IMG/VR virus record: IMGVR_UViG_3300021378_000100
Coordinates: 1-30,773 of that record
Length of the DNA: 30,773 nucleotides
Direction: 5' to 3' (one strand)
Source: a virus
A model generated the notes under the pieces. It was given only the letters and a program-made list of their open reading frames with translations, was not told where the DNA came from and ran no database searches. Of this stretch, positions 17,181 through 29,432 are shown one piece after another (the stretch's first letter is position 1; every line of letters begins with the position of its first letter). The position numbers and the translations under genes are program-made.

Positions 17181-17443
17181 TGGAAGATAATAACGACACT
17201 TTAACTATTACTACTTCAGATTCTAATTATACAGTTAATGTTGATAGTGATTTAGACTGGGGAACACTAGATGTGTCATCTATAGGTACATCAACATATA
17301 CAGGATCAATTACTACAATTACGCTAGACGATATCGGATCATGGGGGACTGATGAAAAACGTACATCAGTTCGTGATGGTGGTGAATTACCGATTGACAT
17401 ATGGGCAAAGATGTATAATAATGGAGTTATAGATGACGAATAA
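17180..17443 (+). CDS. Small acidic hypothetical protein with LPID-W-K-Y motif (second of a pair)
   Basis: 87 residues, very rich in Asp, Ser and Thr. The N-terminal 55 residues are beta-like, with repeating Thr/Ile/Asp (TLTITTSDS, YTGSITTITLDD). The C-terminal segment ELPIDIWAKMYNNG matches the end of the preceding small protein. It couples to that gene by TAATG and overlaps the HAD enzyme gene after it by 11 bases. No known domain is recognised. Placement between recombination and sugar-phosphate genes gives no clear clue to function. Confidence 0.75.
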   Translation: MEDNNDTLTITTSDSNYTVNVDSDLDWGTLDVSSIGTSTYTGSITTITLDDIGSWGTDEKRTSVRDGGELPIDIWAKMYNNGVIDDE

Positions 17444-18140
17444 TTTCATATTTGATGTTGATGGTACACTAACAGATGCACGTCAGCACATAGACCCAGA
17501 GTTTGAAGAATTTTTACATGAGTTTGTTGAAAAACACTCATGTCATGTCTGTTCTGGCAGTGATTATGAAAAGATTGAAGAACAATTAGGCAAAGATTTA
17601 GTTAATAAGTTTGATACCATATTTGCATGCAGTGGAAATCATCATATTAGCAAAGGCAAAGAAACTTATATCTCAGAATGGCAACTTAACACAGAACAAA
17701 AATGGTTTCTCTTGGATGAGCTAGATAAAATTAGCTATCCTTGGAAACGTGGCAGACACTTAGAAGAACGTATAGGATCAGCTAATTTAAGTATCCCAGG
17801 TAGAAACGCAAATCTAGACGATAGAGCTATGTTTGTTTCATGGGATAAAAAAAAGAAAACAAGAATAAAACTGGCAGAAGATTTTAATAACATATACCCA
17901 CATTTAGAGGCAGTATTAGGCGGCGAAACTGGCATAGATATATTCCAAAGAGGCAAAAGCAAAAAGCAAATACTTGACAAATTTGATCACACATCATTAA
18001 TTTACTTTTTTGGTGATAAAATTTGTCCGGGCGGCAATGATTACGATATTGGCACAGCAACAGACAAATTACCATATGGCAAAAGTTTTAACGTAAAAAA
18101 TTGGCAAGAAACATTCAAAATTCTAAAAACACAATTTTAA
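17433..18140 (+). CDS. Eukaryotic-type phosphomannomutase-like HAD enzyme
   Basis: 235 residues, close to eukaryotic phosphomannomutases (about 245). HAD motif I is FDVDGTLTDAR with nucleophile D8 and acid D10. SGSDYEKIEEQLG (41-53) matches the GGSDxxKIxEQLG motif of that family. PGRNA (122-126), GGETGIDIFQRGKSKKQI (163-180, with Lys of motif III) and YFFGDKICPGGNDYDI (191-206) follow in order. The C2b cap lies between. The family interconverts mannose-6-phosphate and mannose-1-phosphate, the precursor of GDP-sugars. Possible roles are sugar modification of phage or host surface, or a plain phosphatase; the sequence cannot separate these. An AAA-AAA-AAG run at about 17846-17855 is noted but probably has no function. 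Confidence 0.82.
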   Translation: MTNNFIFDVDGTLTDARQHIDPEFEEFLHEFVEKHSCHVCSGSDYEKIEEQLGKDLVNKFDTIFACSGNHHISKGKETYISEWQLNTEQKWFLLDELDKISYPWKRGRHLEERIGSANLSIPGRNANLDDRAMFVSWDKKKKTRIKLAEDFNNIYPHLEAVLGGETGIDIFQRGKSKKQILDKFDHTSLIYFFGDKICPGGNDYDIGTATDKLPYGKSFNVKNWQETFKILKTQF

Positions 18141-26581: not shown

Positions 26582-27742
26582 ATGGCAGAAAATCTAATGG
26601 AAAATTGGAGCGAAACTAAAACAGCTCTAACCGACGGTCTAACTGGAACAAAGAAAAAAGTTATGGAAAGTGTTCTCGAGAATACTAAAACATATTTGTC
26701 AGAAGCAGCAGGCGCAGGCGCAACAGCGTCAGGCAACATTGCTACATTAAACAAAGTTATTCTTCCAGTTATCCGCCGTGTAATGCCAACTGTTATTGCA
26801 AACGAAATCGTTGGTGTTCAGCCAATGACTGGACCAGTTGGACAAATCCACACACTACGTGTACGTTACGCAGAAACTTTTGACTCAGCAACAGCTGGTG
26901 ACGAAGCATTGAGCCCATTTGCAATTGCAACTGGTTACTCAGGTAACGCAACAACAAACCGTGCGGATGCAACAAGCACAATGGAAGGTTTGGCAGGTAA
27001 GAAAATGTCAATCCAAGTCCTAAAACAAACTGTTGAAGCTAAAACACGTAAGCTATCAGCACGTTGGACATTCGAAGCGGCACAAGATGCCAACTCAATG
27101 CACGGACTAGACGTAGAAGCAGAAATCATGCAAGCACTTGCACAAGAGATTACTGCTGAAATCGATCAAGAAATCATTGCAAGCCTAACATCACTAGCAG
27201 GCACAGCGGCTGACACATACGACCAAAGTGGCGTAAGTGGTACAGCAACATTTGTTGGTGACGAGCATGCAGCTCTTGCAGTTCTAATCAACAAAAATGC
27301 AAACACAATTGCAGCACGTACACGCCGTGGCGCAGGTAACTGGGCAGTTGTTTCTCCAACAGTACTAACAGTACTACAGAGTGCAACTACATCAGCATTT
27401 GCTCGCACAACAGAAGGTCCGTTTGAAGCACCAACAAACACCAAGTTCGTAGGTACACTAAACGGCACAATGCGTGTATATGTAAACCAGTATGCAGCTA
27501 ACGATGACGTACTAGTAGGTTATAAGGGTTCAACAGAAACAGACGCAGCAGCGTTCTATTGCCCATACATCCCACTAATGTCAAGTGGCACAGTACTAGA
27601 TCCAAGCTCATTCGAGCCAGTAGTATCATTCATGACACGTTATGGTTATGTTGAACTAAGCAACCAGGCATCATCTCTTGGTAATGCAGCTGATTATCTA
27701 GCAAACATTGCAGTTACAACAGGTCAACTTGCATTCTCTTAA
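26582..27742 (+). CDS. gp23: Major capsid protein gp23
   Basis: 386 residues with a HK97-like capsid fold of the gp23 family. Recognisable parts include LPVIRRVMPTVIANEIVGVQ, MTGPVGQIHTLRVRY, LSARWTFEAAQDANSMHGLD, VEAEIMQALAQEITAEIDQE and, near the end, ASFEP-like SSFEPVVSFMTRYGYVE. It is shorter than T4 gp23 (521) and than most cyanophage forms, mainly because the region after residue 210 lacks a large insertion domain. The N-terminal 40-60 residues should be removed by gp21. Codons are more GC-rich and regular than in neighbours, as expected for the most abundant protein. AAGGAG ribosome site; a strong terminator follows. Confidence 0.96.
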   Translation: MAENLMENWSETKTALTDGLTGTKKKVMESVLENTKTYLSEAAGAGATASGNIATLNKVILPVIRRVMPTVIANEIVGVQPMTGPVGQIHTLRVRYAETFDSATAGDEALSPFAIATGYSGNATTNRADATSTMEGLAGKKMSIQVLKQTVEAKTRKLSARWTFEAAQDANSMHGLDVEAEIMQALAQEITAEIDQEIIASLTSLAGTAADTYDQSGVSGTATFVGDEHAALAVLINKNANTIAARTRRGAGNWAVVSPTVLTVLQSATTSAFARTTEGPFEAPTNTKFVGTLNGTMRVYVNQYAANDDVLVGYKGSTETDAAAFYCPYIPLMSSGTVLDPSSFEPVVSFMTRYGYVELSNQASSLGNAADYLANIAVTTGQLAFS

Positions 27743-27766
27743 TAGAGATAGATAATAAAATAAAGA

Positions 27767-27791
27767 TAGGCGCTACGGCGCCTATTTTTTT
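27767..27791 (+). terminator. Rho-independent terminator after gp23
   Basis: TAGGCGC (27767-27773) and GCGCCTA (27778-27784) form a perfect 7-bp stem closed by a C-TACG-G loop of the stable UNCG class, followed by T7. Confidence 0.92.
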
Positions 27792-27792
27792 G

Positions 27793-27810
27793 ACTTTTTT
27801 TAAAAAAAGT
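27793..27810. repeat. AT palindrome upstream of the small-RNA promoter
   Basis: ACTTTTTTTAAAAAAAGT is a perfect 18-base palindrome ending one base before the base preceding the -35 box. It could act as an UP element, bend the DNA, or add to termination of gp23 transcripts. Confidence 0.6.
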
Positions 27811-27811
27811 G

Positions 27812-27840
27812 TTGACATTGGTGTCTACATATGCTATATT
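27812..27840 (+). promoter_or_regulatory. Strong sigma70-like promoter of the small RNA
   Basis: TTGACA at 27812-27817, an optimal 17-base spacer, and TATATT at 27835-27840 with an upstream TGC that fits an extended -10. An A/T tract lies directly upstream. It is the best sigma70-type promoter in the window, and no protein gene follows within 330 bases. Confidence 0.85.
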
Positions 27841-27846
27841 ATATAC

Positions 27847-28131
27847 ATAGCTTGGGAGATATCCCAGAGTTAGATAGTGCAAGGAATGGCAATCCGTAGA
27901 GGTTGTAACTTGGTTCATAGCTGTAGTGGCAATGCAAGAGCGTAGAGATACGAAGTTGTACTTTTAGACGTAACCGTTTAATATGAAGCTCCCTGTTTTT
28001 GAGCGTGGCTCTACAAAGGGGTTGTTGGTATTCACAGAGTCCAACCTATCACTTTTATCGGAAGGGTTTTGTTTCCCTTGCAAAATATAGAACAAAACAA
28101 AGACTTGTTCTTAGTTGAGCAAGTCTTTTTC
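27847..28131 (+). ncRNA. Candidate small structured RNA, about 285 nt, own promoter and terminator
   Basis: Transcription should start near 27847 and stop at the hairpin at 28100-28127. No credible reading frame lies inside: the longest near the start is 19 codons with a misplaced ribosome site. Hairpins include TGGG/CCCA (27853-27856 with 27863-27866), GTTGG/CCAAC (28024-28028 with 28041-28045) and AAGGG/CCCTT (28062-28066 with 28075-28079). A set of short motifs occurs twice in the same order: GGCAAT, CGTAGAG, GTTGTA and CTT at 27888-27911 and at 27928-27963. It lies between gp23 and fibre genes and would be read by host polymerase from early on. I match it to no known RNA family (not tRNA, tmRNA or 6S-like as far as I can see). 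Confidence 0.7.
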
Positions 28132-28133
28132 TT
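28100..28133 (+). terminator. Rho-independent terminator of the small RNA
   Basis: AAGACTTGTTC (28100-28110) pairs with GAGCAAGTCTT (28117-28127), an 11-bp stem with one wobble pair and a 6-base loop, followed by a T-rich tract. Confidence 0.9.
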
Positions 28134-28144
28134 ATCTTAACCGC

Positions 28145-28152
28145 TATAAATA
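28145..28152 (+). promoter_or_regulatory. Late promoter box (TATAAATA) for the fibre gene
   Basis: Exact TATAAATA preceded by C, 21 bases before the ATG at 28174, with GGAGAT as ribosome site. It starts a new late unit after the small-RNA terminator. Confidence 0.75.
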
Positions 28153-28173: not shown

Positions 28174-28863
28174 ATGAGTACCACAAAATATAAACAGGAT
28201 TTAGATGTTACTGGAAATATAACATTATCTGGAAACGTAACAGCAGATGGTAATGTAATATTAGGTGATGCCGATACAGATAGTATTACACTAAATGCTG
28301 ATATAACAAGTAGTATTATTCCAGATGTAGATATTACATATGACCTAGGTTCTACCACAAAAACTTGGCGAGAAGTGTTTACTAGCAAAGTTAACAGCGC
28401 AGTTGGTGATGATTTAGATTTACACAGTGGCGCAGACATTGCGCTATATCCTACAGGTAATATTTGGATTAAACAAGATACAAAACTTATTTTTGAAGGC
28501 ACTGTGCCAGATGATTTTGAAATTAAACTTCAAGCACTAGCAGCAACCGCAGACAGGGATATTATATTACCAGATGCTAGCGGAACGCTTGCACTAAATG
28601 AAAAATTACAAGACGGAACATTTGATTTAGATGTTAACAGTTTTACTGTAAGTGGATCAAGTACTACTAGTATCACAGCAGGTGCTAATATTGAACTAAA
28701 TGCGACAACCCGTGTATTAGTTACAGACACGCCATTTAGATTGGCAAGTTTTACTACTGTAGAACGTGATGCTTTGAGTGCAGAAAATGGCGATATGATC
28801 TACAACACAACTGACAACAAATTCCAAGGATATGAGAACGGTGCTTGGGCTAACTTAATCTAA
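28174..28863 (+). CDS. Fibre-like virion structural protein
   Basis: 229 residues, rich in Asp, Thr, Ser and Gly and almost wholly beta-like. The N-terminal part has repeating strands (DVTGNITLSGNVTADGNVIL), then the YDLGSTTKTWREVF module often seen in marine phage fibre proteins, and at the end the fold-back motif GDMIYNTTDNKFQGYENGAW. Both modules recur in the next fibre-like protein (29461 onward), so the two are related by module exchange. It is likely a trimeric tail or head fibre part. No chaperone domain is visible. Late box and good ribosome site upstream. Confidence 0.7.
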   Translation: MSTTKYKQDLDVTGNITLSGNVTADGNVILGDADTDSITLNADITSSIIPDVDITYDLGSTTKTWREVFTSKVNSAVGDDLDLHSGADIALYPTGNIWIKQDTKLIFEGTVPDDFEIKLQALAATADRDIILPDASGTLALNEKLQDGTFDLDVNSFTVSGSSTTSITAGANIELNATTRVLVTDTPFRLASFTTVERDALSAENGDMIYNTTDNKFQGYENGAWANLI

Positions 28864-28898: not shown

Positions 28899-29432
28899 AT
28901 GAGCAATCTTAAAGAACTAACAATGGAACATCACCGTTCTGCAGAACGCTGTGGATTTGTTAAAGTATTACTTGGTGGTAATATAGAACCTACTTTGTAT
29001 GGTGTATTTTTACTAAATCAGTATCACAAATATAGTGCATTAGAACAACTTGCACTTGAACGTGGGCTTTTAGTGGGCATCGAGTCAATACAACGTGCTG
29101 ATAAAATATTAGCAGATGCAACTGAACTATTGTTACATAATAATATTGATTTACTACAGAGCACATCAGAATATATTAGTCACGTACAAACACTAAACGA
29201 TCATGATTTATTTGCACATATATATGTACATCACATGGGAGACCTAAGTGGTGGACAAATGATTAAAAAACGTGTTCCGGGTGCTTGCACTATGTATGAA
29301 TTTGACGGAGATGTTATAGAACTCAAAAATGAAATACGTAGTCGTTGTAAGGACTCTATGGCTCAAGAAGCTAAAATGTGCTTTGAATTTGCTATCAAAC
29401 AGTTTAATGAAATGTCTAAACTCACCGCATAA
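28899..29432 (+). CDS. ho1: Heme oxygenase
   Basis: 177 residues, shorter than cyanobacterial HO-1 (about 240). The proximal helix LKELTMEHHRSAERCGFVKV gives H12 as the heme-ligating His by match with the KSHTMAENVGFVK pattern. YGVFLLNQYHKYSALEQ is the next helix. HIYVHHMGDLSGGQMIKK (107-124) is the family signature, with GD-x-SGG in the distal helix. The enzyme opens heme to biliverdin, CO and iron, using reduced ferredoxin. In cyanophages it feeds bilin synthesis; in a non-photosynthetic host it could supply iron. No bilin reductase is seen nearby. It has only a weak ribosome site and no late box of its own, so it is probably read with the fibre gene before it. Confidence 0.93.
   Translation: MSNLKELTMEHHRSAERCGFVKVLLGGNIEPTLYGVFLLNQYHKYSALEQLALERGLLVGIESIQRADKILADATELLLHNNIDLLQSTSEYISHVQTLNDHDLFAHIYVHHMGDLSGGQMIKKRVPGACTMYEFDGDVIELKNEIRSRCKDSMAQEAKMCFEFAIKQFNEMSKLTA

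Follow-up and report, generated by a model that had tools for sequence, protein, structure and literature searches.

A divergent manA-family RNA with its own promoter and terminator beside a viral major capsid gene

Introduction

The window, by which we mean the whole 30.8-kb virus record analysed here (36.9% GC), raises a question in the interval between its gp23-like major capsid gene and the late gene that follows: which RNA is encoded at positions 27812-28134, and does it serve the next gene or act on its own? The interval is laid out as a promoter, a structured non-coding RNA of ~285 nt, an intrinsic terminator and a separate late-type promoter. An earlier reading of the letters alone, here called the original prediction, took this arrangement for a stand-alone regulatory RNA of unknown identity. 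The features referred to below are the following, all positions being those of the window.

26582-27742, + strand: gp23-like major capsid protein gene, the upstream neighbour (Pfam PF07068 Gp23, E 1.4e-103)
27762-27789, + strand: intrinsic terminator ending the capsid transcript (12 pairs, 5 GC, T-run)
27795-27808, + strand: T/A tract 5' of the promoter, TTTTTTTAAAAAAA, with a putative UP-like role
27812-27840, + strand: sigma70-type promoter TTGACA-17-TATATT, TG-extended, conserved in 67 of 67 related loci (near-identical copies included)
~27847-28131, + strand: predicted non-coding transcript of ~285 nt, from promoter plus terminator
27852-28055, + strand: manA-family structured core (RF01745 positions 1-192, 40.1 bits, E 5.4e-9)
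27873-27877, + strand: 5' strand GAUAG of the closing helix (helix 2), pairing with CUAUC at 28046-28050, from covariation
27924-27927, + strand: GUAGUG hairpin loop, with a proposed kissing contact to 27973-27976, from pairing across copies
27941-27952, + strand: hairpin CGUA-GAGA-UACG with a GNRA tetraloop (helix 9, 95% paired); the loop type recurs in relatives
28060-28081, + strand: small additional hairpin separating the core from the terminator, absent from most relatives
28099-28128, + strand: intrinsic terminator at the 3' end of the RNA, a 12-pair stem and then a T-rich tail (-15.3 kcal/mol)
28145-28152, + strand: TATAAATA, which resembles a T4-type late promoter and precedes the downstream gene, with similar sites in most relatives
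28174-28863, + strand: downstream late gene encoding 229 aa, unmatched in Pfam and called fibre in the original prediction

Results

A non-coding unit between two late genes

The whole RNA of the window folds with a z score of -2.9, and no conserved ORF was found in its segment: all six frames are broken and differ between relatives, which rules out a small-protein gene. Consistent with the original prediction, the interval thus holds some 285 bases with hairpins and no gene, and the unit is flanked on both sides by terminators on the + strand (27762-27789 and 28099-28128). The separate late promoter that had been proposed behind the second terminator was also recovered, as TATAAATA. With this terminator and a late-like promoter standing before the next gene, the window RNA does not lie in a 5' UTR.

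The RNA is a divergent manA RNA

The comparison with Rfam that had been suggested at the outset gave no family in the window at curated cut-offs. A lenient scan matched the manA RNA (RF01745) over its whole model at 27852-28055, with 40.1 bits (E 5e-9) against a curated cut-off of 55.2, and every other family had an E value above 0.03, which is chance level. The full set of consensus helices of RF01745 was matched without truncation over model positions 1-192. No tRNA, tmRNA or 6S RNA was found in the window by Rfam or ARAGORN, the lenient scan being significant for manA only, and these three identities were rejected for want of a model match.

Of the 80 contigs whose capsid proteins are closest to that of the window, 18 carried an RF01745 match, always on the same strand as the capsid gene and 0.1-1.0 kb past it. 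Seven of these 18 exceeded the cut-off (78.6, 61.9, 60.4, 58.6, 57.9, 57.8 and 56.4 bits), and the manA-family RNA of Mosig, a phage of SAR11, scored 64 bits against RF01745. We then used a covariance model, R1, made from 25 non-cyanophage copies (the window's lineage and a Mosig-like lineage). Such a model from relatives had been proposed in the original prediction, and it does find cyanophage manA RNAs, recovering them at full length in P-SSM2 (E 8e-8), P-SSM7 (8e-7) and S-CREM1 (2e-10). All 30 of its matches in 618 kb fall at such RNA loci; the window copy scores 169.7 bits and belongs to the training set of the model.

These sequence comparisons place the window RNA in the manA family, as a divergent branch homologous to RF01745. 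We file it as a divergent variant and not as a plain member because it scores under the RF01745 cut-off. The stand-alone non-coding unit of the original prediction is therefore upheld, with a layout conserved in many phages, while its unknown identity gives way to that of a manA homologue. A known family does match, namely manA RNA, an orphan family labelled cis-regulatory; the tRNA, 6S and tmRNA models did not.

A covarying fold with a proposed loop-loop contact

The joint alignment of 49 distinct copies, cyanophage copies included, had 45 of 49 base pairs changed on both sides and 92.8% of cells paired, in an alignment that is fitted to the structure and model. With the RNAalifold/R1 structure as consensus, the covariation score was 0.607, compared to 0.175 for shuffled alignments and ~0.10 or less for slid structures. 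RNAalifold on an unfitted MAFFT alignment gave double changes in 25 of 39 pairs. The closing helix, for example, reads GAUAG/CUAUC in the window and GGGAG/CUCCC in cyanophages. Rfam 14 gives the manA structure with 48 significantly covarying pairs, and the reality of manA RNA is therefore not in doubt.

The GUGGUG/GUAGUG hairpin loop can pair with a later ACC/ACU loop. The middle position of this contact pairs in 44 of 47 readable copies (AU 20, GC 17, GU 6, UA 1), and the three mismatches include the window (A-C) and its near twin L029. Where Weinberg et al. 2010 draw the manA pseudoknot, it carries a question mark (PMC2864571). Taken together, the covarying compact fold, the GNRA hairpin and the predicted loop-loop contact suggest binding of a protein, a ligand or the ribosome over simple antisense action.

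A conserved promoter directly before the RNA

The promoter of the window RNA consists of a -35 box TTGACA at 27812-27817, a 17-nt spacer and a -10 box TATATT at 27835-27840 (11/12 matches), with the +1 predicted at ~27847. Within 3 kb around the locus, 6 promoter-like sites of at least 9/12 were seen versus 8.5 expected from shuffles, and several other 11/12 sites lie across the window on the two strands. The match alone proves little, and we take the promoter as real because it is conserved at related loci. In the window's lineage, to which a pattern scan added 47 further stretches, a site of at least 9/12 lies just 5' of the RNA in 67 of 67 loci and one of at least 10/12 in 65 of 67, compared to 1.5% of random positions, in a set where some copies are almost identical and a few contigs entered by both routes. 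Mosig likewise has a sigma70-type promoter directly before the RNA. The near-perfect sigma70 promoter with its A/T tract (~27795-27808) was thus read correctly from the letters, as was a sigma70-type RNA unit inside a late gene block, a layout that is conserved across many phages.

A second scan gave at least 120 stretches of the cyanophage type. Among the matches listed, 58 of 66 distinct usable copies scored 10/12 or more for a promoter whose end lies ~7-15 nt 5' of the RNA, by a simple score that misses -10 boxes of the TATAAA type; the random-position control belongs to the window-lineage set alone. Inspected by eye, the low scorers L193, L194, L211, L227 and L288 read TTGACA ... TATAAA, and L232 has a weaker site. 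In the low scorers L244 and L296, the RNA follows a tRNA. The predicted +1 and the model's first base are at most a few bases apart in P-SSM2, P-SSM7 and S-SSM7.

Terminators and tRNA junctions at the 3' end

The strong terminator that had been noted after the window RNA was confirmed (28099-28128, 12 pairs), and the segment 28056-28134 folds at -24.5 kcal/mol with a z score of -4.3. According to one script, a terminator follows directly after the RNA and before any ORF in 31 of 39 matches of the window's lineage; a second script found a strong intrinsic terminator just 3' of the RNA in 32 of 39 distinct copies, compared to 2.6% in the control. Its T-run lies ~35-45 nt past the core in most relatives and 76 nt past it in the window. 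The first gene after the RNA in L039 is a tRNA-Gly gene, with the terminator behind the tRNA, and the terminator is missing after the RNA in Mosig and L103.

Two other elements were observed 3' of manA RNAs. A conserved and apparently structured non-coding stretch, AGTGTTTTAATATACACACCAGAGTAGATGCACC, replaces the terminator ~20-250 nt past the RNA in L116, L121, L123 and L141, and had no Rfam match over the cut-off in L116 and L123. A terminator-like element with conserved loop sequences, AGACCTAAGATGCAACTC...GAGTCGGGCAGATGGTCTTTTT, recurs in L200, L210, L213, L240, L258, L282, L283 and L305; Rfam did not report it in L200 and L240.

For cyanophage-type RNAs among the matches listed (n=64), the 3' side held an ORF without a terminator in 39, a terminator before the ORF in 16, a tRNA in 4 and none of these in 5. 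In S-SSM7, the manA RNA at 151363-151563 is flush with a tRNA-Gly that starts at 151564, and in S-CREM1 (L148) the RNA is likewise in direct contact with tRNAs, lying between tRNA-Leu and tRNA-Asn. L296 has a tRNA-Thr (1120-1191), a flush manA RNA (1192-1384) and then a terminator, and in L208 the RNA is again flush with a tRNA. Such junctions are a minority, ARAGORN finding tRNAs near 7 of 92 distinct copies among the matches listed. RNase P and tRNA 3' processing would free an RNA that is joined to tRNAs, and manA copies joined to tRNA genes would therefore again become separate RNAs. A wcaG RNA lies in the same tRNA-rich stretch of S-CREM1 as the manA RNA (L148, 2246-2343), and this class may deserve the same check.

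Downstream genes are of many kinds

The genes 3' of the RNA fall into over 30 groups among the matches listed, with no evident common function. A gp32-type ssb gene follows in 17 distinct copies among the matches listed, from both branches (L194, L228, L241, L103 and others), and a transaldolase-like gene in 9 copies among the matches listed, these names coming from reading of the sequences and not from a domain search. Leaders of T4 gp32 are sites of autoregulation. In most capsid-linked copies a late-like GATAAATAC stands after the terminator, at the same place as TATAAATA in the window, and in L122 the ORF after the RNA's terminator lies on the opposite strand.

Behind the RNA, an MGRP-type late gene has a leader that is the freshwater-2 RNA RF02980, over the cut-off, in L040 (4774-4857), L077 (6624-6706) and L118 (882-963, - strand). 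RF02980 had no match at the downstream gene of the window, which is a different gene.

Distribution among phages

The capsid proteins of named phages closest to that of the window are from Pseudomonas phage PA5oct (69.5%), Vibrio phage 2.275.O and Sinorhizobium phage Phosso, which are large phages and not cyanophages. Of these, 2.275.O and Phosso do not carry the RNA. Some of the absence is genuine: the RNA was lacking altogether in nine named phages tested, and it was missing at 30 of the 49 capsid loci that are followed by 1.3 kb or more of sequence. When the window RNA or its best homologue was searched directly against the DNA of named phages, nothing relevant came up, and only the copy of L022 found Mosig. 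There were also five matches in genome assemblies, of which L308, without surrounding features, looks spurious and the others may be phage DNA.

The window also encodes a phosphomannomutase-like gene (17433-18140; PF03332, E 3e-33) and a heme oxygenase gene (28899-29432; PF01126), whose closest phage relative is that of Mosig (42%). Permuted alphaproteobacterial tmRNA genes were seen in the manA-family carriers L100 (Mosig, MT647606) and L123 (887-1189, - strand), a hint of alphaproteobacterial hosts.

Discussion

A free-standing RNA as the best explanation

At the level of its sequence, the unit is a stand-alone gene, with its own promoter, its own 3' end, no ORF and a conserved structure, and comparison of ~90 copies suggests that manA RNA is frequently produced as a separate molecule. 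On balance, we think that the unit is probably a free-standing RNA gene, transcribed by the host polymerase and acting in trans as a folded RNA. The host sigma70 RNA polymerase would start at ~27847 and stop at the terminator ending at ~28131, giving a non-coding transcript of 285 nt, the first 210 nt of which would fold into the manA-family structure with its multiple helices, GNRA hairpin and loop-loop contact. This RNA would be made independently of the preceding capsid gene and of the following late gene and, being read by the host polymerase, probably from early in infection. The folded RNA would then act on a protein, the ribosome or another host or phage component and not on the next gene. 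Action in trans is favoured because the following gene varies widely in kind and comes with a promoter of its own, because an ORF on the opposite strand follows one copy, and because copies joined to tRNAs are not simple gene leaders. Counting against it are the many cyanophage copies that stand directly before ORFs, with the gp32-type ssb and transaldolase-like genes recurring, the lack of the terminator in Mosig and L103, and the window copy's low Rfam score and mismatch in the proposed kissing contact.

Alternative explanations

A general leader or promoter cassette, in which a strong host promoter is combined with a protective or boosting 5' RNA and the terminator is incidental in the window's lineage, would account for promoter and RNA starting together in nearly all copies and for the wide variety of downstream genes. 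However, it would be useless with a terminator directly after it, as in 31 of 39 copies, and the detailed covarying fold with near-invariant loops exceeds the needs of a stabilising leader. We consider it unlikely.

An attenuator or riboswitch in cis, in which the manA RNA senses a signal, decides the fate of the 28099-28128 terminator and so sets readthrough into the next gene, is a quite unlikely reading of this locus. It agrees with the classic order of RNA, terminator and gene, with the many cyanophage copies that stand directly before ORFs, and with the classification of manA RNA by Rfam and Weinberg et al. 2010 (PMC2864571) as cis-regulatory and a possible riboswitch. However, the terminator arms paired with their own RNA at a mean of -8.28 kcal/mol versus -8.38 kcal/mol with the RNAs of others, the own RNA being better in 11 of 26; the arms thus appear uncoupled from their own RNA, which speaks against an attenuator, and no arm competing with a sensing domain was found. 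Moreover, the terminator stems are wholly different between relatives, with 25 different sequences, while the RNA is conserved. Further against attenuation, a late-like promoter stands past the terminator before most downstream genes, these genes share no evident function, and one lies on the opposite strand.

Action in cis on the transcribing polymerase is very improbable. The put RNA of phage HK022 acts in this way, by antitermination in cis, and the structured RNA does begin at, or a few bases from, the start site predicted for a strong sigma70 promoter. However, a terminator right after an antiterminator would be pointless, yet here one persists although its sequence changes. That the manA match is a chance one and the segment merely a spacer with promoter and terminator can be dismissed, since, although the window copy by itself is below the Rfam cut-off, homologues over the cut-off, reciprocal detection by R1 and strong covariation already refute it.

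Implications for the manA class

The wider reading that manA RNAs are trans-acting phage RNA genes, and not riboswitches, that serve a common infection need and not the metabolism of a single gene, in cyanophages, the SAR11 phage and marine T4-like relatives alike, with ends set by a host-type promoter with a terminator of its own or by tRNA excision, is tentative, and we lean slightly away from it. The RNA may have cis roles in cyanophages, where many copies precede ORFs and where the ORF without a terminator in 39 of 64 cases among the matches listed fits a leader. The RNA may also have both roles, or be a leader in cyanophages and free-standing in the window's lineage.

Databases and four papers (PMC2864571, PMC9964418, PMC10665884, PMC12197685) regard manA RNA as acting in cis to regulate carbohydrate, nucleotide or photosynthesis genes. 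The open-access papers found all present it as cis-regulatory, and the class is not questioned in them. When pelagimyophages were surveyed with a riboswitch tool, riboswitches were found in neither phage group (PMC7029224). If manA were mainly an independent RNA, the functional assignments would fall, and a ligand search tied to the next gene would be the wrong experiment. The cassette predicts 5' and 3' ends of the RNA in the cultured phages P-SSM2, P-SSM7, S-SSM7, S-CREM1 and Mosig.

Comparison with known systems

The free-standing RNA proposed here recalls the rnaC and rnaD RNAs of T4 (species 1 and 2), which are also small stable phage RNAs, rnaD lying 1 nt from tRNA-Arg. Kinship with them was rejected: R1 with filters off reached at most 4.8 bits there, and Rfam gave no manA match. 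The wcaG RNA (RF01761) is another cyanophage RNA labelled cis-regulatory and lies near tRNA-Met in S-CREM1; it is a separate model that has no match in the window. The tmRNA, including the permuted alpha-type, is likewise structured, several hundred nucleotides long and present in some carrier phages (L123, Mosig), at a separate locus.

The closest system is manA RNA (RF01745) itself, which the window RNA resembles in its full-length match, its helices, its conserved loops and the T4-like marine phages that carry it. The window copy differs in scoring under the cut-off, in lying outside a 5' UTR, in having its own terminator and in a proposed kissing contact broken at one pair. Unlike the manA RNAs described earlier, those of the window's lineage adjoin gp23 in phages that are not of the cyanophage type, and the manA family is hereby extended to non-cyanobacterial marine phages.
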